From Comamonadaceae bacterium (GTDB lineage Bacteria > Pseudomonadota > Gammaproteobacteria > Burkholderiales > Burkholderiaceae_C): DNA of 20,182 nucleotides. The position numbers were made by a program, and so were the translations under genes. Positions 1,188 through 20,182 of this stretch are shown here, in pieces; the stretch's first letter is position 1; each line of letters starts with the position of its first letter. The notes beneath the pieces were generated by a model, which was not told the origin of the DNA, made no database searches, and worked only from the letters and a program-made list of their open reading frames with translations. The stretch spans positions 1-20,182 of the forward strand of contig CANLWQ010000008.1 in the NCBI GenBank assembly GCA_947494405.1, written 5' to 3'.

Positions 1188-1278
1188 ACAATCAGGGTTA
1201 TCCCTAGGAGCGATTATGATTCGACTCAATGAGTTTTTCTCATTAGATAGTTTTTATCAATCCAACAAAGGAATCACC

Positions 1279-1842
1279 ATGTCTCTGATCAACACACAAG
1301 TTCAACCCTTCAAAGTTCAAGCATTTCACAATGGCAAATTCATTGAAATTACCAATGAATCGCTTAAAGCCAAATGGTCTGTGCTGATTTTCATGCCTGC
1401 TGCTTTTACTTTCAACTGCCCCACAGAAGTTGAAGATGCAGCGGACAACTATGCAGAATTCCAAAAAGCCGGTGCTGAGGTTTATATTGTGACGACCGAC
1501 TCCCACTTTGCCCACAAGGTATGGCATGAAACATCTCCTGCTGTTGGCAAGGCCAAGTTCCCCTTGATCGGTGACCCCACGCATCAATTGACCCGCGCAT
1601 TTGGCGTACACATTGAAGAAGACGGCATGGCCTTGCGTGGCACTTTCGTCATCAACCCCCAAGGCCACATCAAAACTGCTGAAGTGCATTCCAACGAAAT
1701 CGCTCGCGATGTCAAGGAAACACTGCGCAAACTTAAAGCAGCTCAGTACACCGCGGCCAACCCTGGTCAAGTTTGCCCTGCCAAGTGGAATGAGGGCGCA
1801 AAAACTTTGACACCTTCACTTGATTTGGTTGGCAAAATCTAA
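1279..1842 (+). CDS. ahpC: Alkyl hydroperoxide reductase peroxiredoxin subunit AhpC
   Basis: AhpC is the cytoplasmic 2-Cys peroxiredoxin that reduces hydrogen peroxide, organic peroxides and peroxynitrite and is recycled by AhpF. The 187-residue protein, the usual family length, begins [16 protein letters not shown]. It carries the peroxidatic Cys47 in FTFNCPTE, the [13 protein letters not shown] segment (~98-110), and the resolving Cys166 in GQVCPAKW, and it ends SLDLVGKI as in Escherichia coli. The ATG at 1279 is chosen because AAAGGAA (1267-1273) sits just upstream and the N-terminus then matches the family exactly. A start at 1216 would add 21 unsupported residues. ahpF follows after 19 bp, so the two are surely cotranscribed. 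A 27-bp palindrome upstream is the likely control point. Asn46 before the Cys replaces the commoner Val; from memory this occurs in beta-proteobacterial relatives. Confidence 0.97.
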
Positions 1843-1861
1843 GACAGACAGAGAGAAAAAA

Positions 1862-3421
1862 ATGCTTGATACACAGATGAAAACCCAGTTGCAAGCTTAT
1901 TTACAAAACTTGCGCAACCCCATCAGTTTGGTTGCAACGCTAGACGGCGGTGAGAAAAGTGCAGAAATGCGCGAACTGCTTGAGGAGATTGCTGGGTTGT
2001 CTGATAAGGTGAGTTTTGATGATTCTGGACACGATGCGCGCATGCCATCGTTTCAAATTGTCAAACAGGGAGAGGACAGCGGTGTACGTTTTGCTGCCAT
2101 TCCCCTGGGACATGAGTTCACTTCCTTGGTCTTGGCTCTGCTTTGGACGGGAGGACACCCGCCCAAGGTGGAGGCTGAAGTGATCGAGCAAATCAAGGCG
2201 TTGGACAAGGACATGAAGTTTGAGGTTTACATGTCCTTGTCTTGCCATAACTGCCCTGACGTGGTTCAAGCAACCACCTTGATGGCTATTTACAACCCTA
2301 AGATTCAAACCACAGTCATTGACGGAGGCTTGCATCAAGCGGAAGTAGAAGCGCGCCAAGTCATGGCTGTGCCCATGGTTTACATGAATGACCAAGTCTT
2401 TGGTTCAGGTCGAATGAGTCTGGAAGAAATTGTTGGCAAGCTCGATACCCATTCCGCAGAGCGGGACGCTGTCAAACTGAATGAAAAAGATCCTTTTGAT
2501 GTGTTGATCGTCGGTGGCGGTCCTGCGGGTGCCGCGGCCGCGGTGTATGCTGCTCGTAAGGGTATCAGAGTGGGCGTTGCTGCCGAGCGTTTTGGGGGTC
2601 AAACCAACGACACCTTGGCGATTGAAAACTACATATCTGTGCTTGAGACCGATGGGCCCAAGTTTGCAGCTGATTTAGAGGCGCAGTTGCGTCACTATGA
2701 AGTTGACATCATGAACTTGCAGCGCGCCGACAAAATCATTCCTGCAACACAAGAGGGCGGTTTGGTGCAAGTGCATATGGCCAATGGCGGTGTGTTGAAA
2801 GCGCGCAGTGTGATTTTGTCAACCGGCGCGCGCTGGCGTAATGTGAATGTGCCAGGAGAGCAAACCTACAAAAACAAAGGTGTGGCGTATTGCCCGCACT
2901 GTGATGGCCCGTTGTTCAAAGGCAAGCGTGTGGCTGTGATTGGCGGCGGGAATTCTGGTGTGGAGGCCGCGATTGATTTGGCTGGGTTCGTGGCCCATGT
3001 TTCTTTGATTGAATTTGCCGACACATTGAAAGCTGATGCTGTGTTGGTTCGTAAGTTACAGAGCTTAGCCAATGTGAGCATTCATCTGAATGCACAAACC
3101 ACCGAAATTACCGGTGACGGGCAAAAGGTCAATGGCATGCGCTACAAAGACAGGTCTACCGACCAAGAGCATTTGGTGGAACTTGAAGGCGTATTTGTGC
3201 AAATTGGTTTGATTCCCAACACAGAGTTTTTAAAAGGCACGATTGAATTGAGCAAGTTTGGTGAAATTGTGGTGGACGCCAAAGGCCACACCAACTTGAC
3301 AGGTGTATTTGCGGCAGGCGACGTGACCACAGTGCCTTACAAGCAAATTGTCATCGCAGCGGGGGACGGTGCTAAAGCTGCGCTGAGTGCTTTTGATTAT
3401 TTGATTCGCACGCCTGCTTAG
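1862..3421 (+). CDS. ahpF: Alkyl hydroperoxide reductase flavoprotein subunit AhpF
   Basis: AhpF passes electrons from NADH through FAD and two Cys pairs to AhpC. The 519-residue protein has the complete architecture: an N-terminal tandem thioredoxin-fold domain with the redox pair C128-H-N-C131, an FAD-binding [10 protein letters not shown] motif (~residues 216-225), the catalytic C344-P-H-C347 pair, an NAD(H)-binding [10 protein letters not shown] motif, and the C-terminal FAD motif [13 protein letters not shown]. The N-terminus [15 protein letters not shown] matches the E. coli protein when the ATG at 1862 is used. AGAGAGAAAAAA upstream is a purine-rich ribosome-binding site. A start at 1820 would overlap ahpC and is rejected. 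E. coli has AGDCTT where this protein has AGDVTT. The gene ends 29 bp before a convergent histidine kinase gene, with a 15-bp inverted repeat across the junction. Confidence 0.97.
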
Positions 3422-3434
3422 ACAGCAATCTAAT

Positions 3435-3498
3435 CACGTTCAAGGTTTCTTAAAAACACATCTCCTCTTTGCTTGCAGGGAGGGAAACCTTGAACGTG
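3435..3498. repeat. Perfect 15-bp inverted repeat across the ahpF / kinase 3' junction
   Basis: CACGTTCAAGGTTTC (3435-3449) and GAAACCTTGAACGTG (3484-3498) are exact reverse complements separated by 34 nt. The right arm lies in the last coding codons of the kinase (TTFKVS region); the left arm lies just past its TAA, in the intergenic gap. RNA from either direction could fold into a 15-bp stem with a long loop. It may act as a bidirectional terminator or 3'-end stabiliser for the convergent genes, although neither side has a strong T-run. The repeat itself is certain; its function is inferred. Confidence 0.6.
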
Positions 3499-4940
3499 GT
3501 TCCCATTTCACTGCTGCTGGTGAAATTGATTGTGCCGTTATGAGATTCGATGATGGTTTTGCTCAGCCACAATCCGATTCCCATGCCGTCCTCTTTACTG
3601 GTTCGCAACAATTCAAAAATAGAGTTTTCTATAGCTGGGTCTATGCCACATCCGTTATCACTGACGGTGAAAACAATGTTTTCGTTTTCTGTTCGAGTTG
3701 TCACTTTAATTACTTTTGTTTTTTTTAAATCAGCTTGGAAAGATTCACAGGCATTGGTCACCAAATTAAGCAAAACCTGTTGAAGTTGAGACTTGTCGCC
3801 GGTAAATGTCAAAGCATGTGGATGGAGATCTTCCGTTAAGTCAATTGAATGACGTTGCAGGGTTGATTGGCTGAGCAACAAAATATCTTTGACTAAATCG
3901 TTGATGTCAAAGACGGATATAGATTTGCCCCCATGGCCAAACATATTTCGCAAGGTGCTGATGATGTTTGCTGCTCGTTGGTTGGCTTTCTTGAGCCCTG
4001 TCATTGCTTTATGGATACTTGATGTTTGATTTGAATCCATGGCATTGTTGGCTATAACCAAATCAATCATTTCTGCATTCATTTGAATGACAGTCAAAGG
4101 TTGATTGAGTTCGTGCGCCAAACTGGCCACCAATGCACCCATACCAGCTGTTTTATTCAGCATGGTGAGTTGTCGAATGATTTCTTCTCGTTCTTGCAAA
4201 AGTTTTTGTAATTCCATGCTGTTGCGCTGCATAGTATCTGCAAGCTCATGGGTGCTGGCCAATTCACTGGCAACTGCCAATTTCTGTCGTTCTGCGTTCT
4301 CTAAAAAAATACGTAAAAAAGCTATATTGCTCAACGTAATGGCAACAAACTGACCAATCACCATCACGGCTTGATGCCAACTGGGCGCGTAAATATCATC
4401 GATGGTGCCAGCCGAGTAAACCCCTAGCGCACGTACAGCCAAGGTGATTGTTAGTGTCAAACCCGCCCCCATCAGCAATCCCGCGCCGAGTGATTTTTGA
4501 TGTTTGTTAAGTTGTAATCCAATAAGGAAATAGTCAAAGCAAAGTAAGGCGTAGAACCCATTGAACAATATCAAAGCTTCCCACTCAGCTTGGTGGAAAT
4601 AAATCAAGTAGCTAAACACTACAAAATAGCTGGTGTTAACAAAATAATAAAACTGAAATTTTCTATCTTGAGGCTCTGGAAGAAGGTACATACGCAGTGC
4701 CATCATCCGTCCGCCATTGCCAACCAACATAAAAAGTTGAGAGACGTACAGAAAGACAAACTCTGGAATACTTCCCCTGGTGGCCAACAAAATAACCGCA
4801 ATACCACTGCACATCCCGGAGAAGCACCATAACTTCACTTGATAGCTTCGGTACTCTTGTAATGCGAGCCAAATAACGCCATGCAGAATCAAGTAGATGA
4901 AGCAAATCATGAAAATAGTGGTTTGCGGATCTAGCCTCAT
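3450..4940 (-). CDS. Seven-helix membrane sensor histidine kinase
   Basis: This is a 496-residue inner-membrane histidine kinase. About seven hydrophobic segments occupy residues 8-27, 36-54, 61-79, 97-115, 122-142, 151-172 and 189-213, with no large periplasmic domain. A helical, probably coiled-coil linker follows (~214-265). The dimerisation/phosphoacceptor region has H276 in SLAHELNQPLTVI. The ATPase domain shows an N box (NLVTNACESF, ~392-401), a G1 box (DNGCGID, ~428-434), an F-box-like FELLRTSK and a G2 box (GMGIGLWLS, ~452-460). All catalytic residues are present. I recognise no named sensor domain in the membrane part. The gene starts 3 bp after the mreB-like stop and is almost certainly translationally coupled to it. 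No response regulator follows; the obvious partner is the divergent regulator at 6542. The signal may lie in the membrane or come from the cytoskeletal partner. Confidence 0.9.
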   Translation of the reverse strand: MRLDPQTTIFMICFIYLILHGVIWLALQEYRSYQVKLWCFSGMCSGIAVILLATRGSIPEFVFLYVSQLFMLVGNGGRMMALRMYLLPEPQDRKFQFYYFVNTSYFVVFSYLIYFHQAEWEALILFNGFYALLCFDYFLIGLQLNKHQKSLGAGLLMGAGLTLTITLAVRALGVYSAGTIDDIYAPSWHQAVMVIGQFVAITLSNIAFLRIFLENAERQKLAVASELASTHELADTMQRNSMELQKLLQEREEIIRQLTMLNKTAGMGALVASLAHELNQPLTVIQMNAEMIDLVIANNAMDSNQTSSIHKAMTGLKKANQRAANIISTLRNMFGHGGKSISVFDINDLVKDILLLSQSTLQRHSIDLTEDLHPHALTFTGDKSQLQQVLLNLVTNACESFQADLKKTKVIKVTTRTENENIVFTVSDNGCGIDPAIENSIFELLRTSKEDGMGIGLWLSKTIIESHNGTINFTSSSEMGTTFKVSLPASKEEMCF

Positions 4941-4943
4941 CTT

Positions 4944-5984
4944 TTATTGACTCACGAAGATGCCTTGCACACTGTCTAGGTGTTCGAGCGCCATTCCGCA
5001 TCCCCGTACAACGCATGTCAGAGGTTCCTCGGCCCGTAAAACCGGTAAGCCGGTTTCCTGCGCAATTAACTTATCTAAGTGCTTGAGCATGGCACCGCCT
5101 CCTGTCAGCATGATGCCACGCTCGGCGATGTCTGAACTCAATTCTGGAGGTGTGTTTTCCAGTGCAATTTTGATTGCCATGACAAGGCCATTCAATGGTT
5201 CTGACAATGCTTCGAGCATTTCTGAGGATGAAACCATGAACGATTGTGGAATGCCCAAGCTCAAATTTCGGCCAGTGATATTCATTTCCTTGAGCTGTGA
5301 ATCTGGGTAGGCTATGGCAATCTCTTTTTTGAGCATTTCGGCAGTTTGATCGCCAATGAGCATGCCGTAATTTCTTCTGATGTAGTTGACAATAGCCTCG
5401 TCAAATTTGTCGCCACCTATTCGTACGCTGCCCTTGTAAACCATGCCGCCCAGTGAAATGATGGCTACCTCAGTCGTTCCGCCGCCTATATCGACGACCA
5501 TGGAACCGCAGGCTTCAGCTACCGGCAGACCCGCACCTATGGCTGCGGCCATGGGTTCTTCGATCAAATAAACTTGAGAAGCACCCGCACCCAACGCTGA
5601 TTCGCGAATGGCACGGCGCTCGACTTGGGTAGAACCGCAGGGAACACAGATGATGATTCTTGGACTCGGACGCAACCAACTGCTGGGGTGAACTTTGCGA
5701 ATGAAATGCTTGAGCATCAATTCGGTGATGGTGAAGTCGGCTATGACACCGTCCTTCATGGGTCGAATGGCTTCAATGTAATCAGGAACTCGGCCCAACA
5801 TACTCTTTGCCTCATGGCCTAGAGCCATTAGGTTTTTTTTGCCACCTGGCCCAGACGAGTGTCTGATGGCGACCACAGAGGGTTCGTCCAACAAAACACC
5901 TCTGTCTTTGGCATAAATCAGGGTGTTGGCTGTGCCCAAATCAATGGCTAAATCGGTGGAAAACCATCTTGCTATCAGTTTCAA
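4944..5984 (-). CDS. MreB-family actin-like protein (probable paralogue of the cell-shape MreB)
   Basis: This 346-residue protein aligns over its whole length with cell-shape MreB, a bacterial actin that polymerises under the membrane. An amphipathic N-terminus (MKLIARWFS) precedes the phosphate-1 motif [12 protein letters not shown] (11-22). Then come [20 protein letters not shown] (~110-129), the phosphate-2 motif [11 protein letters not shown] (163-173) and the adenosine motif [10 protein letters not shown] (291-300). The usual nucleotide-binding residues look intact, so it should bind ATP. The start is a TTG at 5984, with AAGG 11 nt upstream; a TGA two codons before it rules out a longer form. 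The canonical mreC, mreD, mrdA and rodA are absent here. Instead it lies between a RodZ-like HTH gene (53 bp upstream) and a histidine kinase gene (3 bp downstream). A second, specialised MreB is my inference; that it is the only MreB of the organism cannot be excluded. Confidence 0.9.
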
Positions 5985-6037
5985 AATATATCAAGCCTTG
6001 CTATGCATATCGCTTTCAAATTGCGCCAGGCATCATT

Positions 6038-6388
6038 TCATGGAGATGTGTTTTTTTTCAGGAATGCGGGTATGAATTGGGCTTCATTTTTGACTTGAAG
6101 AATGCTGGGGGCCCTTTGTATATCGCTGATGAAAAGGTGAGGCAAGTTAAGCCCCAGTTTTTTTGCATATAAACGGGCAAACCACTCCAGTGGTTGGGTG
6201 GCATTTTTCTTGAAGTGTTCTTCTTTGCCTTCTTCTATCGCTAAGATTTGATCTTCACGCATGCCGAGTTTTTTGCTCATCTGCGCAAGCGTCCATCCCT
6301 TGCTCTCGCGAAACTGGCGCAACATACGTCCAGTTTCAACATGCCTTGAATGGTCAAGAGATGAATCAAGATTCATTTTGCTAAGCAT
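6038..6388 (-). CDS. Stand-alone RodZ-type helix-turn-helix protein
   Basis: A 116-residue soluble protein with one helix-turn-helix domain at about residues 18-82 (MLRQFRESKGWTLAQMSKKL, MREDQILAIEEG, FARLYAKKLGLNL). The sequence resembles the cytoplasmic HTH_25 domain of RodZ, which binds MreB directly, more than a typical phage-type repressor: note the AIEEG turn and the LYAKKLGLNLP helix ending. The transmembrane helix and periplasmic domain of RodZ are missing, and the ~35-residue tail is hydrophilic. It is the first gene of the HTH-mreB-kinase operon. It could therefore be an MreB-binding adaptor, a DNA-binding regulator of the divergent promoters, or both. The start is ATG 6388 or ATG 6376; neither has a good ribosome-binding site. 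A 16-bp palindrome covers the second. Confidence 0.75.
   Translation of the reverse strand: MLSKMNLDSSLDHSRHVETGRMLRQFRESKGWTLAQMSKKLGMREDQILAIEEGKEEHFKKNATQPLEWFARLYAKKLGLNLPHLFISDIQRAPSILQVKNEAQFIPAFLKKNTSP
6361..6376. promoter_or_regulatory. Palindrome at the start of the HTH gene
   Basis: ATGAATC-AA-GATTCAT is a 7-bp inverted repeat with a 2-bp centre, lying over codons 5-10 of the HTH gene and including its alternative ATG. It could be an autoregulatory operator or simply codon composition. The symmetry is exact apart from the centre; function is unproven. Confidence 0.3.
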
Positions 6389-6391
6389 TTA

Positions 6392-6417
6392 ATTTCAACA
6401 TGAGTGAAATATTGCAC
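6392..6417. promoter_or_regulatory. Inverted repeats just upstream of the HTH gene
   Basis: ATTTCA (6392-6397) and TGAAAT (6405-6410) are exact inverted repeats with a 7-bp spacer. They lie 4-22 bp before the HTH start codon. The overlapping GTGAAATATTGCAC (6404-6417) is itself a near-palindrome. Together they fit an operator covering the leader of the minus-strand operon, which would suit autoregulation by the HTH protein. Confidence 0.35.
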
Positions 6418-6485
6418 CTAATGCATTCTTTCTCCATACCGAAATGGGGATAATTTTCAAAAATATGTTTAAATAGAAAAGTACA

Positions 6486-6499
6486 TTCAGTGCACTGAA
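6486..6499. promoter_or_regulatory. Perfect 14-bp palindrome TTCAGTGCACTGAA
   Basis: TTCAGTGCACTGAA is fully self-complementary. It lies 43 bp upstream of the response regulator ATG, in the 153-bp divergent region. It ends 7-9 bp before AT-rich -10-like hexamers (TATATA/TATAAA, 6506-6513), which places it over the -35 region of a promoter lacking a consensus -35. This is the arrangement expected for an activator site, and the response regulator or the HTH protein are candidate ligands. Confidence 0.45.
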
Positions 6500-6511
6500 G
6501 CGATTTATATA

Positions 6512-6525
6512 AACTATAAATAGTT
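6512..6525. promoter_or_regulatory. AACTAT-AA-ATAGTT inverted repeat in the regulator leader
   Basis: Arms AACTAT (6512-6517) and ATAGTT (6520-6525) are exact inverted repeats, 16 bp before the response regulator ATG in a very AT-rich tract that includes a T7 run directly before the start codon. The tract has no Shine-Dalgarno sequence, so translation may start without one or the element may hold a promoter -10 and a short leader. Confidence 0.3.
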
Positions 6526-6541
6526 ATCTATATATTTTTTT

Positions 6542-7174
6542 ATGAGTTTTATGCATATTAAAGGTCATATTTATCTAGTGGATGATGATTTGGAAATCAG
6601 AATCCATTTGAGCGACTTGCTTAGGCAATCCGGTTACGGCGTTGCCGATTACGCAAGTGCAACAGATTTCTTAACCTCAGCCAACCGCATTTCGCCTGCG
6701 GTTTTGGTTCTGGATATGCGTATGCCTGTGATGACAGGTCTAGATTTACAAAAAGCACTGACAGCTCAGGCTTGGAACTTACCCATTATTTACATGAGCG
6801 GGGAGAGTCACAGCCAAGAAATCATTGACGCTATGAAAACTGGGGCCATAGATTTTTTATGGAAACCTTTTCCCCATTCCCAGCTTTTGCAAGCCGTTGA
6901 AAAAGGTCTTGCATCAGATTTAAATTTCCGTCAAAAAGAAATACGTTTAAGCAAGGTTGAAAGTTTGTATCAAACGCTGAGTTCACGAGAAAAACTCATT
7001 TTTTCACTGATGCTTTTGGGGCATGGCAATAAACGAATTGCAGCCATCACCGATTTAATGGCCGACACGGTGAAAAAGTATCGAGCGCAAGTTATGGACA
7101 AAATGCAGGTAGACAGCTTGGCGGAACTGCTTTCCTTTTGTAAGGGCTTTGAGCCTATGAACTATTCAGACTAA
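6542..7174 (+). CDS. FixJ/NarL-type response regulator (receiver + LuxR HTH)
   Basis: A 210-residue DNA-binding response regulator. The receiver domain (~8-125) has the acidic cluster D14-D16, phosphoacceptor D58 in VLVLDMRMP, S86 in YMSGES and K108 in LWKPF, so it should accept phosphate. A linker precedes a LuxR-type HTH (~146-205: LSSREKLIFSLMLLGHGNKR, then TVKKYRAQVMDKM and SLAEL). The WKPF receiver end is typical of FixJ/TodT/TtrR regulators. The ATG at 6542 is used; ATG 6551 is possible, and neither has a ribosome-binding site. It is divergent from the HTH-mreB-kinase operon, whose kinase is the most likely partner. egtD follows on the same strand after 61 bp, so regulator and ergothioneine genes could share transcripts. 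Confidence 0.93.
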   Translation: MSFMHIKGHIYLVDDDLEIRIHLSDLLRQSGYGVADYASATDFLTSANRISPAVLVLDMRMPVMTGLDLQKALTAQAWNLPIIYMSGESHSQEIIDAMKTGAIDFLWKPFPHSQLLQAVEKGLASDLNFRQKEIRLSKVESLYQTLSSREKLIFSLMLLGHGNKRIAAITDLMADTVKKYRAQVMDKMQVDSLAELLSFCKGFEPMNYSD

Positions 7175-7235: not shown

Positions 7236-8183
7236 ATGCATCATATTGACACATACGAAGTTGGCGCAACAAGTCATCAGGGTTTCGTGCCCGAAATTGA
7301 GACAGGTCTACTCGCTACAACAGCTTCAATCTCACCAAAATTTTTATACGACCCATTAGGCTCCAACCTCTTTGCTGCCATTACCTTACTGCCTGAATAC
7401 TATCCAACCAAAACCGAAAAAGATATTCTTTTTGAATACCAAGATCAAATTGCCAACGCTGTGGGCGTTGGCGGTACCTTGATAGATTTGGGTGCAGGGA
7501 ATTGTCAAAAAGCAGAATCTCTTTTTAACGCGCTCAAGCCCACCGACTACATTGCGATTGATTTTTCAACTGAGTTTTTGCATGAGGCTATTAAAAATCT
7601 TCAAGCTCAGTATCCTCATATTCACATGCAAGCCATTGGCATGGATTTTTCTCAAGAACTCGTCATTCCTAAAGCCGTCAATACAAGCCAAAGAACTTTC
7701 TTTTATCCAGGCTCAAGCATTGGTAACTTTGTTGGCTCCCAAGCTCTCAAGCTTCTCAGTCAAATCAAGGAGCAAGCACTGGGTGGTGGTCTGTTGATGG
7801 GTGTTGATTTGATGAAAGAGGATTCGGTGTTGATGGCGGCATACGATGACCCCCTCAAACTCACAGCGGCTTTTAATCTCAATATTTTGAGATCGGTTAA
7901 TGCACATCTGGGTTGCGACTTCAAAGTGGATCAATTCCGTCATGTGGTCAAAATAAATCATGCATTGAATAGAGTCGAGCTTTATCTTGAGGCACTTGAA
8001 GACTTGACTGTCTCATGGTCTGGCAATTCCAGAACCTTCAAAAGGGGCGAGCTCATTCACACCGAGTATTCGCACAAATACACCATTGCATCTATTCAAG
8101 AATTATTGAAGAACGCAGGTTTTACAACCTCACAAATTTGGACCGATCCCAAAAACTACTTCGCCGTCATTTATGCTCGATAA
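7236..8183 (+). CDS. egtD: L-histidine N-alpha-methyltransferase EgtD
   Basis: EgtD trimethylates the alpha-amino group of L-histidine with three S-adenosylmethionine molecules to give hercynine, the first committed step of ergothioneine synthesis. The 315-residue protein is the usual family length. It shows the family segments SPKFLYDPLGSNLFAAI (~33-49) and LLPEYYPTKTE (51-61), the SAM-binding loop LIDLGAGNCQKA (82-93), and TFFYPGSSIGNF (154-165), which forms part of the substrate pocket. A TAA two codons before ATG 7236 fixes the earliest start. No close ribosome-binding site is visible. egtB overlaps its last 11 bp, so the two are coupled. The combination of motifs and the egtB neighbour make the assignment firm. 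Confidence 0.95.
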   Translation: MHHIDTYEVGATSHQGFVPEIETGLLATTASISPKFLYDPLGSNLFAAITLLPEYYPTKTEKDILFEYQDQIANAVGVGGTLIDLGAGNCQKAESLFNALKPTDYIAIDFSTEFLHEAIKNLQAQYPHIHMQAIGMDFSQELVIPKAVNTSQRTFFYPGSSIGNFVGSQALKLLSQIKEQALGGGLLMGVDLMKEDSVLMAAYDDPLKLTAAFNLNILRSVNAHLGCDFKVDQFRHVVKINHALNRVELYLEALEDLTVSWSGNSRTFKRGELIHTEYSHKYTIASIQELLKNAGFTTSQIWTDPKNYFAVIYAR

Positions 8184-9405
8184 GACCCTAAAACCTGCAG
8201 TTTCAGCAAACGAGTTGTTAGAACAATTCCATAGCTCAAGACAATACTCTTGCGATCTCATCAAGAATTTATCAGCCGAAGACTGCCAATCTCAGTCGAT
8301 GGAGGACGCCAGTCCGGCGAAATGGCATTTGGCTCATGTCACTTGGTTTTACGAGGTCATGGTTCTCAAACCCTATGAACAAAACTTCGCCTTTTGGAAT
8401 CCTGCGTTCGCAGTTTTATTCAACAGCTATTACAACGGTATTGGGGACAAGCACCCGCGCACACAACGTGGACTGCTAACCCGTCCGGCGCTCTCTGAAG
8501 TGCTTGAATGGCGCAAGAATATTGAAGACCGAGTGACAAAACTCTTAAAAGAAAATTCTTCTCCCGATGTGCTGTGGTTAATTCAAGTAGGCATCAACCA
8601 CGAGCAGCAGCACCAAGAATTACTGCTCACAGATATTCATCATCTCTTTTCTCAAAATTCACTTTACCCTGCTTATTCTTCGCAAAACAAAGCTGTGGCT
8701 CATGCGGACACGCCTTTTCAGTGGATCGAAGGCGTGGGTGGTTTGGTTGAAATTGGTTTTGACGGGGAGGGCTTTCATTTTGACAATGAGAAGCCTTTGC
8801 ATACCGCGCTGAATCCCGACTATTTCTTGGCCAATAGATTGGTGAGCAATTCAGAGTGGCTTCAGTTTACAGAGGACGGTGGATATAAAAACTTCAAATG
8901 GTGGCTTGATGCTGGCTGGGCATGGCTTCAAGCCCATCAAATTTCTGCGCCTCTTTATTGGAACAAGAAAAACGACACACAACTGTTTCGTTTTTCGCTA
9001 GAGGGTAATTCGCCACTGGATATGCATGCGCCAGTAGCCAATATCAGTTACTTTGAAGCCGATGCATTTGCACGCTGGGCCAGTGAAAATATTCCTCACC
9101 TCTCTGGCGCGCGCCTGCCCACAGAATTTGAATGGGAGGCTTTTGCAAAAAATAAACCTGTACAAAGCAAAGACTTATTTGGCAAGGTCTGGCAATGGAC
9201 CAGCAGCAACTACAACCCCTATCCGGGCTATCGGCCTTGGGCTGGTGCTGCTGGCGAGTACAACGGTAAGTTCATGGTCAATCAGATGGTCATCCGAGGT
9301 GGCTCTGTCTACACGCCTGCAGACCATTCACGAGTTTCATACCGTAATTTCTTCCCAACCCATGCGCGTTGGCAAATGACCGGCTTAAGACTTGCCAAAT
9401 TTTGA
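8173..9405 (+). CDS. egtB: Ergothioneine sulfoxide synthase EgtB
   Basis: EgtB is a non-heme iron enzyme that joins hercynine to a thiol (cysteine or gamma-glutamylcysteine) with O2 to form the sulfoxide intermediate of ergothioneine. The 410-residue protein has an N-terminal DinB-like helical domain and a C-terminal formylglycine-generating-enzyme-like domain. The three iron-binding His are visible: H52 in WHLAHVTWF, and H143 and H147 in NHEQQHQE. The C-terminal half shows RLPTEFEWEAFA, GKVWQWTSS, GEYNGKFMVNQMVIRGGS and SYRNFFPTHARWQMTGLRLA, typical of proteobacterial EgtB. The ATG lies inside the 3' end of egtD. egtC and egtE are absent from the window. An enzyme that uses cysteine directly would not need EgtC, but thiol preference cannot be read safely from the sequence. 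Confidence 0.95.
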   Translation: MLDKTLKPAVSANELLEQFHSSRQYSCDLIKNLSAEDCQSQSMEDASPAKWHLAHVTWFYEVMVLKPYEQNFAFWNPAFAVLFNSYYNGIGDKHPRTQRGLLTRPALSEVLEWRKNIEDRVTKLLKENSSPDVLWLIQVGINHEQQHQELLLTDIHHLFSQNSLYPAYSSQNKAVAHADTPFQWIEGVGGLVEIGFDGEGFHFDNEKPLHTALNPDYFLANRLVSNSEWLQFTEDGGYKNFKWWLDAGWAWLQAHQISAPLYWNKKNDTQLFRFSLEGNSPLDMHAPVANISYFEADAFARWASENIPHLSGARLPTEFEWEAFAKNKPVQSKDLFGKVWQWTSSNYNPYPGYRPWAGAAGEYNGKFMVNQMVIRGGSVYTPADHSRVSYRNFFPTHARWQMTGLRLAKF

Positions 9406-10022: not shown

Positions 10023-11039
10023 TTACTGCTTAGAGCCTTCCGAGAGTCTGCGGCCTAAACCCACTGCATAAGGCGCTTCTCTTGCCGCGAGCATAGGATC
10101 GTTAGATGGCTCTACACCCTTGGGCAAGACAGTGGGAATGAACGTCATGTCACGACAGGCACCGCCTGAATCTTCAGCAACTGCTGTCACCTTCAAGCTG
10201 CCCAGCGTTACTTTTCGACGACTTTCGGGCAAGGGCACTGTGGCACTGTCTAGTTTGTCACCAGCCTCTGCCAATTGAAGGTTGAAATTGAAAGTTACTT
10301 GTCCGTCCTTGACGCGTTGACGAAGATCGTCGAACAGGAAAGAGGTTCCTTTTGCCTTGGCTTCTTCATCGCTCAGGCCCATCACGCCGGCGACAGGCTC
10401 AAAAATCCATTTGCCAAATTGCTTTTCGCCCTTGCTGTTGACAAACGCAAAGGCATTGACACCCCAGTAATTGACAGAGGCAAAGCTGGCTGGCACCGGC
10501 TGGCTTGCAAAGTATTTACCTTGTAGCAGCACTTCTGGGTTGGCTTCGGCAAAAGCTTTGACCTTTTCAGGGTTGGGTGCTTTGGTTGAAGGGTCTGGGG
10601 TGAGTGACTCCAAGCGCCCGAGCAATTGTGCTGGTGTTGATGATCCAAAAACAGGCGCTGAAATATTTCCCATTTGCCATGTTTCACCATCAGGGAGGTT
10701 GAACTGCAGCGCCATATTGCGCTGACTTTTTGCATTGTCTACAGCCTTAGGGTTACCGCCGCCTACAGAAAAGCGAAGGATCACAGGTATTTTTTGGCCA
10801 CTGAATGCAGATGCCGAGGACAAGGTGCGACCGTCGGTGCTGCCTACAAACTCTCCGGTTGCGCATATTCCCTTCGCACCCGAGCGGCGATATCCTTCAA
10901 ATTTTCCACCGGCTGCCTCGAAAGAGTCCACCATCTTCACGGGGTCCACAGTTTCTGCGTTGATGGCAGTTGCCATCATGAGATTGCTGAAAGTGAAAAC
11001 AGCCAGAGCAGATAGTCTTGGGTAAGGGTGGAATGACAT
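10023..11039 (-). CDS. Exported catalase-related peroxidase (SrpA-like family)
   Basis: This is a small catalase-fold heme protein, 338 residues from ATG 11039. That start gives a signal peptide (MSFHPYPRLSALAVFTFSNL, cleavage probably after INA at residue 28), so a periplasmic location is likely. A start at 11090 would bury the signal peptide and is rejected; neither has a clear ribosome-binding site. Family landmarks are GAKGICATGEF (54-64), PVILRFSVGGGNPKA, MALQFNLPDGETWQM, FDFxL-type NFNLQLAEAG, and the C-terminal RxxxY of AREAPYAVGLGRRL, which supplies the proximal heme tyrosine. The residue before AKG, where catalases carry the distal catalytic His (HAKG), is Gly54 here. Catalatic or peroxidatic activity is therefore uncertain. 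The DUF427 gene follows after 9 bp. Confidence 0.85.
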   Translation of the reverse strand: MSFHPYPRLSALAVFTFSNLMMATAINAETVDPVKMVDSFEAAGGKFEGYRRSGAKGICATGEFVGSTDGRTLSSASAFSGQKIPVILRFSVGGGNPKAVDNAKSQRNMALQFNLPDGETWQMGNISAPVFGSSTPAQLLGRLESLTPDPSTKAPNPEKVKAFAEANPEVLLQGKYFASQPVPASFASVNYWGVNAFAFVNSKGEKQFGKWIFEPVAGVMGLSDEEAKAKGTSFLFDDLRQRVKDGQVTFNFNLQLAEAGDKLDSATVPLPESRRKVTLGSLKVTAVAEDSGGACRDMTFIPTVLPKGVEPSNDPMLAAREAPYAVGLGRRLSEGSKQ

Positions 11040-11208
11040 GATGAATAAATAAAGTTGATAAAAATTAACTATATAGTGGAAAAAAACCAATCTAATGCGG
11101 CAAATGAGAAACCCCAGCCAATCAGACAGTAATTAAATCTGGCTTGGTATATTGCAAGTCTTGATAAGGGCGCGTTGAAAAACCTGAGCTATTGAATGGA
11201 AATCTTGT

Positions 11209-18753: not shown

Positions 18754-18843
18754 ATGCAAGCTCGGTGTACTCACTTTCACAGCCAACATCAACTGTGTTT
18801 AAACTTATTCTTCTATAAACCATTCATAAGCGACGTATTGTGA
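18754..18843 (+). CDS. Possible 29-residue Cys/His-rich leader peptide before sodC
   Basis: An ATG at 18754 with an excellent ribosome-binding site (AAAGGA, 18743-18748, 5-nt spacing) opens 29 codons. They end in TGA 18841-18843, which overlaps the sodC GTG start (18840-18842) in the sequence GTGA. The first half is rich in metal-ligand residues: C5, H7, H9, H12 and C15 within RCTHFHSQHQLC. sodC itself has no good ribosome-binding site, so termination-reinitiation from this frame would explain its translation. The residues suggest copper or zinc responsiveness, but that is inference. The frame could be accidental; no homologue is known to me. Confidence 0.4.
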   Translation: MQARCTHFHSQHQLCLNLFFYKPFISDVL

Positions 18844-19352
18844 AAAAATTTCTTTTTTTGGCTGCAGTTCTCGTCATATCTGCTTGTGCCACACAGACCC
18901 ATAGGCCTTCCGCAATCGCGCAGCTTAGCCCCACCAAGGGCAACACCACATCTGGAAGCGTGCAGTTCACGCAAGCTGGGGATAAAGTACTTGTCAAAGT
19001 AGACATCAAAGGGCTTAAGCCAAATGCTCAACATGGCTTTCATGTGCATGAAAAAGGTGACTGCTCTAGCGGTGATGGTATGAGCACAGGAGGTCACTTC
19101 AACCCATCCGGTACCTCACATGGCGCACATGGGCAAGGCGTTCACCACGCTGGAGATTTACCCTCACTGAAAGCTGATGCTAATGGTGCTGCAAAAGTGA
19201 CATTTGAGTCATCCACCATCTCCATCGTTGAAGGGATATCAAATGTCATTGGCAAGGGCTTGATCGTTCACCGAGACCCAGACGATTACAAAACCCAACC
19301 CACTGGAAACGCTGGGCCAAGACTTGCATGTGCAGTGATCAATAAAAGTTAA
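18840..19352 (+). CDS. sodC: Cu,Zn superoxide dismutase, predicted lipoprotein (SodC)
   Basis: SodC converts superoxide to hydrogen peroxide and O2 outside the cytoplasm. The 170-residue protein starts at a GTG and has a lipoprotein signal MKKFLFLAAVLVISAC with the lipid-accepting Cys16 after ISA, so it should be anchored to a membrane facing the periplasm. Metal ligands are visible: H68 and H70 in HGFHVHEKGDC, bridging H86 in GGHFNPSG, the Zn region HGAHGQGVHHAGDLP (94-108, D106) and H144 in LIVHRDPDDY. The disulfide partners are C75 and C164, with R161 in GPRLAC. All key residues are present, so it should be active. Its stop shares the sequence TTAA with the convergent gene. Translation probably depends on the overlapping upstream frame. 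Confidence 0.95.
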   Translation: MKKFLFLAAVLVISACATQTHRPSAIAQLSPTKGNTTSGSVQFTQAGDKVLVKVDIKGLKPNAQHGFHVHEKGDCSSGDGMSTGGHFNPSGTSHGAHGQGVHHAGDLPSLKADANGAAKVTFESSTISIVEGISNVIGKGLIVHRDPDDYKTQPTGNAGPRLACAVINKS

Positions 19353-19718: not shown

Positions 19719-20120
19719 TCAGTCTTTATTGAAAACAGCATCCACAGGCAGTTGCATTGCTGAAGCCAGTTGATTGGTTTTCCCTGCCAAAGCAATCACA
19801 CGCAGTAAATCGGCGTATTGCGCATCTGACATCCCTTTGCTTCTTGCAGCTGCCGTATGAGAATGAACACAATAGCTGCAAGCGTTGGCGACAGAAACCG
19901 CGATATAGATCATTTCTTTGGTGAGAGGATCAAGTGAGGAGGGCGAAGCCATGACAGCTTTAACCTCGCGCCAAGTACTTTCTAGTAAATCAGGGTCAAA
20001 CGCCAAATAGTGCCACATGTTGTTGATGAAATCACTTTGACGGGTTTGCCTGATGTCATCAAAAACAGCTTTGACTTTGGGGTTACTTTCAATATTTGCG
20101 GGTAAGGAAAGGGTGCTCAT
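19719..20120 (-). CDS. AhpD-like carboxymuconolactone decarboxylase-family protein
   Basis: A 133-residue helical protein of the carboxymuconolactone decarboxylase/AhpD superfamily. The peroxidase-type motif C81-S-Y-C84-x3-H88 (ANACSYCVHSHTAAA) is intact, so thiol-dependent hydroperoxide reduction is the likely chemistry rather than decarboxylation. The segment LTKEMIYIAVSVANACSYC is typical of the group, and a GMSDAQYADLLRVIAL helix follows. ATG 20120 is chosen because GGGAG (20128-20132) lies 7 nt upstream; a start at 20162 would add 14 unsupported residues. A TGACA-TT-TGTCA palindrome lies further upstream. Its partner reductant is unknown; the family often works beside peroxiredoxins, and this window carries ahpCF far upstream. 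Confidence 0.88.
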   Translation of the reverse strand: MSTLSLPANIESNPKVKAVFDDIRQTRQSDFINNMWHYLAFDPDLLESTWREVKAVMASPSSLDPLTKEMIYIAVSVANACSYCVHSHTAAARSKGMSDAQYADLLRVIALAGKTNQLASAMQLPVDAVFNKD

Positions 20121-20149
20121 ATGAATTACTCCCAAAAAATTGAATTGAC

Positions 20150-20161
20150 TGACATTTGTCA
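20150..20161. promoter_or_regulatory. TGACA-TT-TGTCA palindrome upstream of the AhpD-like gene
   Basis: Exact 5-bp inverted repeat with a 2-bp centre, 29 bp before the start codon. It is a plausible operator. The neighbouring AGTCAAT (minus strand) also occurs in the ahpC palindrome, but seven shared bases are too few to claim a common regulator. Confidence 0.3.
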
Positions 20162-20182
20162 TCTTATTTAGCCAACTGCCAA

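Follow-up and report, generated by a model that had tools for sequence, protein, structure and literature searches.

The contig analysed here (contig C8 of the 1.93-Mb, 80% complete draft genome G000 of a Comamonadaceae bacterium; "the window" denotes all of its 20,182 nucleotides) carries three minus-strand genes, coding for a short RodZ-like helix-turn-helix (HTH) protein, an MreB paralogue (MreB2) and a seven-helix membrane histidine kinase, which face a divergent FixJ-type response regulator. We lean towards reading this locus as a signal-controlled accessory-cytoskeleton cassette, in which the two-component system would switch on an alternative RodZ-like/bactofilin/MreB cytoskeleton; the cytoskeleton would thus be the output of the system. 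The evidence, drawn from sequence comparison, consists of a gene set conserved within the genus, a distinct MreB2 clade, a palindrome at fixed spacing from a -10-like element, and a joint change of this palindrome and the regulator's recognition helix. The comparison set comprised 84 genomes of the genus and 399 genomes of the family, 393 of them outside the genus; since further genomes of the genus have the same gene set accompanied by the regulator, it goes beyond chance. The initial annotation of the window had proposed a cytoskeletal signalling module that relays filament or membrane state to the regulator. As a whole this interpretation is partly supported: the sensor family is recurrently linked to cytoskeletal genes, but the filament as input ranks below the cytoskeleton as output.

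Gene content of the window locus

The coordinates and strands of the four genes, and the gaps of 53 bp (HTH to MreB2) and 3 bp (MreB2 to kinase), agree with the initial annotation. The features of the locus are:

6542..7174, plus strand: FixJ-type response regulator (receiver and GerE domains), 210 aa, divergent from the HTH gene (Pfam, NCBIfam)
6436..6450, minus strand: operator-like palindrome TCCCCATTTCGGTAT, predicted from a shared upstream pattern; right half weaker than in relatives
6408..6413, minus strand: AATATT, a -10-like element whose distance to the palindrome is conserved (alignment; the -42 position is deduced)
6038..6388, minus strand: short soluble RodZ-like HTH protein (HTH_25), 116 aa (Pfam)
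4944..5984, minus strand: MreB paralogue (MreB2), 346 aa, TTG start, nucleotide-binding motifs intact (Pfam MreB_Mbl, tree)
3450..4940, minus strand: seven-helix membrane histidine kinase (HisKA and HATPase_c), 496 aa, final gene of the HTH-MreB2-kinase set (Pfam, AlphaFold2)

Pfam searches with these four open reading frames (ORFs) identified HisKA and HATPase_c in the kinase, a full-length MreB_Mbl domain in MreB2 (469 bits, cut-off 27), HTH_25 in the HTH protein (39.4 bits, cut-off 24.6), and Response_reg and GerE in the regulator. The catalytic motifs are present, namely what we take to be the H-, N- and G-boxes of the kinase, the phospho-Asp and Lys of the regulator, and the nucleotide-binding motifs of MreB2. 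Kinase and regulator have the phospho-acceptor His, the phospho-acceptor Asp and the GerE output of the FixL/FixJ family; FixJ is the best NCBIfam model for the regulator, at 157 bits, below the equivalog cut-off of 255. The predicted seven-helix architecture of the kinase is reproduced by seven long helices in its AlphaFold2 model (mean pLDDT 70; residues 5-26, 33-53, 60-86, 92-116, 119-147, 151-177, and 188 onward); the listed rows of a Foldseek search match the catalytic core, and the seven-helix sensor had no informative match, which has no bearing on its novelty.

The RodZ-type character ascribed to the HTH protein stands in part. HTH_25, the N-terminal RodZ domain, is the best of four HTH families, and the protein is soluble; but it has no transmembrane segment (highest 19-residue hydropathy 0.52; all 14 short HTH proteins at 0.70 or below), and RodZ_C gave no Pfam match at E <= 0.001 within its 116 residues. 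A C-terminal (I/L)P(A/G/S)FL peptide is conserved in the short HTH protein. In a Foldseek search, SinR, XRE, C-protein and HipB folds led, with no match below E 0.001; the RodZ matches were level with a HipB match. A search of solved structures by sequence was set aside, its top rows being chained RecA matches (a repeat artefact) and the rest mostly generic HTH proteins; a PHROGs search gave no useful match. In the 399 family genomes the HTH profile matched only G000 at E <= 1e-9, and none of the 393 outside the genus; the HTH module is therefore not traceable beyond the genus.

MreB2 and other MreB proteins of the genus

A search of the 84 genomes with MreB2 recovered several MreB groups. MreB2 itself was recognised in seven genomes (G000, G014, G015, G072, G091, G099, G107), and all seven genes sit in modules of the kind described here, each beside a short HTH gene. 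In a tree of 55 of the 111 distinct full-length MreB proteins (all 24 that are not mreC-linked, and 31 of the 87 that are), the window copy and the six others form a clade with support of 98/98, and a branch with 100/99 divides it from the mreC-linked proteins. The remaining groups of the tree lie beside bactofilins, beside a gene that is Lrp-like by eye, or without such neighbours. MreB2 thus has neither the mreC neighbour nor the mreC-linked clade of a canonical elongasome MreB; its neighbours are the HTH protein and the kinase. Across the genome collection, mreC lies within 1.5 kb at 79 of the best 80 MreB loci, and the exception (L006) is the same HTH-MreB2 module. The window genome encodes a second MreB (G000:C5), cut by a contig end, with 155 of 155 residues identical to an mreC-linked MreB of the genus. 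By these comparisons the second copy is canonical and MreB2 a true paralogue; MreB2 is accordingly not the sole MreB of its genome.

Besides G012:C13, 13 MreB fragments or partial copies were checked for hidden MreB2 at contig ends: 12 share 98-100% identity with canonical MreB, and the remaining one (G095) is closest to another paralogue. C-terminal fragments outside this check are at most 75% identical to MreB2; further MreB2 copies could lie in unassembled genome parts.

Other MreB genes of the genus show arrangements of their own. Another paralogue clade is divergent from a 107-108-aa bactofilin (L203, L213, L214, L223); in G012, the bactofilin-linked paralogue is followed by a FixJ-like regulator whose phospho-Asp is absent by eye. 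At E <= 1e-40, the search of the genus found no MreB match in G006 (97% complete), G002, G066, G070 and G102; in the near-complete G006 this may be a genuine absence or an assembly gap.

Variants of the module within the genus

Loci with the short HTH gene (type I, n = 14) include MreB2 in seven cases, and none was seen in the other seven (G006, G016, G018, G023, G035, G065, G070), so that MreB2 is optional within the module. The contigs of G065 and G070 end at the locus, where the kinase and HTH genes are immediate neighbours; the G016 kinase is truncated by the end of another contig. MreB2 keeps its short HTH neighbour wherever it was recognised; a 111-aa bactofilin intervenes between HTH and MreB2 in three of the seven MreB2 loci (G015, G099, G091; PF04519 in two, a profile of our own in all three). 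The 53-bp HTH-MreB2 gap of the window copy has no bactofilin. Among the matches listed, G016 has a bactofilin after the HTH gene with MreB not seen, G107 a bactofilin remnant (27 bits), G006 a bactofilin 2 kb past the kinase, and G087 only the HTH gene and a bactofilin, with no family kinase and no regulator in the 14 kb covered. The regulator is divergent and adjacent in 12 of the 13 type I loci whose contig reaches it; among MreB2 loci it is adjacent in six of seven, and in the remaining one it is one gene off. At the G014 locus, regulator and HTH gene are separated by a distantly related kinase that shares an operon with the regulator.

Six loci (type II) combine the same kind of regulator and kinase with a RodZ-like protein and a bactofilin; the slot of the short HTH is taken by a longer RodZ-like membrane protein. 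RodZ_C reached the Pfam cut-off in one protein only (G012:C106; 24.1 with its frame neighbours, 20.9 alone), and the architecture of the other RodZ-like proteins was assigned from sub-threshold or missing Pfam matches, our own profile, and a clear membrane helix in five of the six tested. These associations suggest that RodZ-type HTH proteins go with bactofilins, and not only with MreB. Separate sets of bactofilin, M23 peptidase, bactofilin and RodZ-like HTH occur at L229:3949-6718 (G000:C38), L220, L221, L222 and L277; those of G080 and G018 (L222, L277) lie near minDE.

The wider family of seven-helix kinases

A sensor profile (A4) of 18 rows, 17 chosen by similarity to the window kinase and that of G014 by its position beside MreB2, matched 54 times, in 44 of the 84 genomes, and the stretch around each match was annotated with profiles. 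A cytoskeletal or RodZ-like gene lies within 5 kb of 36 of these 54 kinases, versus none of 20 other kinases of the genus, a control whose matches span the kinase domain only and include many orthologues. The count falls to 30 of 54 if an HTH or RodZ-like gene by itself is not accepted as a neighbour, and four of these 30 depend on a reduced or degraded MreB. Judged by these neighbourhoods, the module belongs to a wider set of cytoskeleton-linked seven-helix kinases.

At the five type III loci, four of them beside ahpF, G012 has an internally deleted MreB, G019, G076 and G089 have degraded copies, and G026 has none; the remnants are:

L207:5024-5755, L209:3545-4060, L259:6213-6791 and L261:1328-1843: type III MreB remnants

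Since these copies are deleted internally or degraded, repeated loss of MreB is suggested; for the G012 copy, the highest score is to the MreB paralogues linked to bactofilin. A tail-to-tail arrangement of kinase and ahpF is seen at the type I loci of G000 and G013 and at the type III loci of G012, G019, G026 and G076, in stretches L122, L207, L208, L209, L259 and window 1820-4940 (G013 has a kinase fragment at a contig end); the ahpF genes are 82-96% identical to that of the window, as if type I and type III were occupants of one chromosomal site.

Type IV kinases follow ftsA-ftsZ-lpxC in 11 loci (G009:C77, G032:C2, G061, G062, G073, G074, G075, G078, G083, G090, G105; L125, L126, L252-L258, L262, L263), one more follows lpxC at a contig end, and a single type V kinase follows minDE. 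The ftsA-ftsZ-lpxC genomes have a RodZ-like-bactofilin-FixJ-regulator set elsewhere; in all 13 type IV/V genomes, RodZ_C-like and bactofilin matches lie immediately upstream of the regulator, joined by an HTH match in 12; the thirteenth (L312) is a shorter stretch. The remaining family kinases comprise five that stand alone but are closely related to type I, and others that lack cytoskeletal neighbours. In 20 loci of kin in other genera (21 of 58 matches listed), scanned with profiles built from the genus, no bactofilin, MreB, RodZ_C, FtsZ or MinD was found; at L320, a locus from another genus, a RodZ-type HTH gene stands beside a regulator, about 4 kb from the kinase. The kinase tree has long branches and requires two changes of MreB2 presence, so that gain and loss of MreB2 are indistinguishable.

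Small ORFs of about 90-100 aa, AraC-like by eye, recur beside sensor-family kinases, and the one scanned had no Pfam match:

L225:8771-9043, L225:10071-10340, L227:9418-9720, L246:8372-8650 and L272:4605-4901: AraC-like small ORFs (by eye)

That the cytoskeleton is instead the input, with the HTH protein binding MreB2 or bactofilin filaments, filament state being relayed to the kinase, and the system reading filament or membrane condition, fits the frequency with which family kinases lie near MreB, bactofilin, ftsAZ, minDE or RodZ-like HTH genes. It also fits the ftsAZ-lpxC arrangement, where a kinase set apart from the RodZ-like-bactofilin-regulator genes could monitor the state of division or growth; the position of kinases next to ftsZ and min lends some weight to a filament-to-kinase direction. 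Yet the HTH gene is kept at the seven of 14 type I loci from which MreB2 is missing, the palindrome described below indicates transcriptional control of cytoskeletal genes, and neither a fused sensor nor a docking element came to light; we regard this account as unlikely.

Regulator, palindrome and promoter

The stretches that precede the HTH or RodZ-like gene at type I and II loci share TCCCYAWTTNGGKRT, exactly in 16 of 19 and with one mismatch in three (in G014 and G002 the region is the kinase-HTH interval, and at five type II loci a small ORF lies between the site and the RodZ-like gene); in the five type III regions and G087 the best fit has 3-5 mismatches. When the palindromes are aligned without gaps, A and T at 26 and 28 bases past the last base are invariant (19/19) and fall within the -10-like element. 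Because this element lies at fixed spacing, the palindrome centre would be near -42, the place at which class II activators bind.

As the pattern was read from these very sequences, a genome scan is the fairer test. Among the 84 genomes it found 21 matches, 14 in these regions, one in the G034 module and six elsewhere; a control scan with the reversed pattern found four. The six matches outside modules (G002:C14, G013, G026, G079, G019, G087) have no cytoskeletal gene by eye and were discounted, their number being near that of the control. In the window genome, the 18-base form with one mismatch allowed has a single site (6435-6452) in the 1.93-Mb draft.

The recognition helix of the regulator reads DTxKK(H/Y)R in all 16 aligned type I/II regulators (of 19), ATLKIHK in all four aligned type III regulators, and TIKLHR in both type IV/V regulators read. 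Type IV/V promoters have TACGCC-N4-GGCGTA and then TTGAC, with at most one mismatch, in 10 of 11 regions (11 of the 13 loci have sequence here). The looser TAC-N10-GTA occurs in the same 10 and in all five type III regions (15 of 16 together), in none of the 19 type I/II regions, and in 34-53 of 1000 resampled type III regions. Helix and site thus vary in step, so that the regulator is a better candidate for the binder than the HTH protein.

The short HTH protein might alternatively be a conventional XRE-type repressor that acts on the operon it belongs to by binding the palindrome, with MreB2 and kinase as its targets and a superficial likeness to RodZ. Its lack of a membrane helix, the Foldseek ranking, in which SinR, XRE, C-protein and HipB come first, and the tie of its RodZ matches with a HipB would agree with such a role, but HTH_25 is its best Pfam family, the palindrome tracks the regulator's recognition helix and is absent upstream of the HTH-bactofilin pair of G087 (where there is no family kinase, and no regulator in the 14 kb covered), and longer RodZ-like membrane proteins fill the same slot in type II; a repressor of this kind is distinctly unlikely. 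An accident of neighbourhood, in which an extra MreB entered a two-component operon and diverged there with no functional link to it, would suit the patchy occurrence of MreB2, the degraded, partly deleted or missing MreB beside type III kinases and the canonical MreB of the window genome, but is very improbable for an MreB2 that is full-length, monophyletic and in context in seven of seven genomes, with its short spacing kept and within a kinase family whose members are linked in several distinct ways to RodZ-like, bactofilin and division genes.

Proposed function

In the signal-controlled cassette that we prefer, the seven-helix kinase would sense a membrane or envelope cue and phosphorylate the divergent FixJ-type regulator, a pairing that we infer from adjacency; the regulator would bind the palindrome at about -42 and activate HTH-MreB2-kinase. 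By gene order the kinase itself lies in that operon, so that positive feedback would result. The products would build an alternative membrane-associated actin filament of MreB2, with the HTH protein presumably bound to it as a soluble RodZ-like adaptor; in relatives the set would gain or retain a bactofilin, or include a longer RodZ-like membrane protein, and the alternative filament would redirect wall growth and cell shape. Going further, it is possible, if doubtful, that one genus evolved seven-helix kinases that both control and read polymers (MreB2, bactofilin/RodZ-like, FtsZ, Min), filament state setting the expression of the alternative filament; if true, such kinases would form a bacterial two-component system that senses the cytoskeleton.

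As a caveat, several points weigh against the cassette. No cytoskeletal or RodZ-like neighbour was found for 18 of the 54 family kinases (some at contig ends), and five close kin of the window kinase stand alone (G105, G074, G061, G073, G078). Loci from one genus are not independent, the 36 linked kinases amounting to about six arrangements, and the neighbour profiles were built partly from the same loci. The palindrome pattern, too, was derived from the same regions before scanning, the genome scan alone being independent, and the ideal symmetrical palindrome has no match in the window even when three mismatches are allowed, the right half being weaker there.

Neighbouring genes of the window

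The window is rich in redox-defence genes, including ahpC and ahpF (ahpC by eye), egtD and egtB (ergothioneine), and genes for a catalase-family protein, a Cu-Zn superoxide dismutase and a CMD-family protein:

1216-3421, 7236-9405, 10023-11090, 18840-19352 and 19719-20162: redox-defence stretches

Comparison with known systems

The initial annotation knew of no described system of this composition, and none appeared among the titles and abstract openings listed by literature searches on MreB paralogues, bactofilin, RodZ and two-component systems, with most subscription journals outside their scope. The canonical MreB-RodZ elongasome (mreBCD, RodZ) shares with the module an actin-like MreB with intact nucleotide motifs and a RodZ-type HTH, through which RodZ binds MreB (PMC3599482). 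The module differs in that MreB2 has no mreC neighbour and falls outside the mreC-linked clade, its HTH protein lacks the membrane helix and RodZ_C, and a two-component system is built in.

The BacA-LmdC bactofilin-M23 peptidase modules are accessory cytoskeleton cassettes that modify elongasome growth, and bactofilin genes cluster with their partners (PMC10945521). The module resembles them as an accessory cytoskeleton cassette, and the window genome has a bactofilin-M23-bactofilin-HTH set elsewhere, on G000:C38 (first bactofilin by eye); in contrast, the partners in the module are a RodZ-like HTH, MreB2 and a kinase-regulator pair, the annotated type I loci have no M23 match, and the window copy has no bactofilin. 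With FixL-FixJ the module has in common a HisKA/HATPase_c kinase and a FixJ-like regulator with FixJ as its best NCBIfam model; it departs from that system in a FixJ score below the cut-off, in a kinase with no Pfam PAS domain and a seven-helix membrane domain as sensor, and in its likely target, a cytoskeletal operon.

WalRK-type envelope systems are similar in placing cell-wall growth under two-component control. Such systems act on hydrolases or envelope regulons, and we know of no WalRK-type two-component locus with cytoskeletal polymer genes; RodZ, bactofilin and MreB are generally regarded as constitutive shape determinants. In the present module, what looks like a dedicated two-component switch, with a predicted operator at one place in the draft genome, would govern an MreB paralogue and a soluble RodZ-like protein; this suggests that in some bacteria a dedicated signal switches on a spare cytoskeleton. 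With such a switch and operator, two questions become accessible to experiment in an organism with a small freshwater genome: how bacterial shape is switched by a signal, and whether kinases can read filament state.

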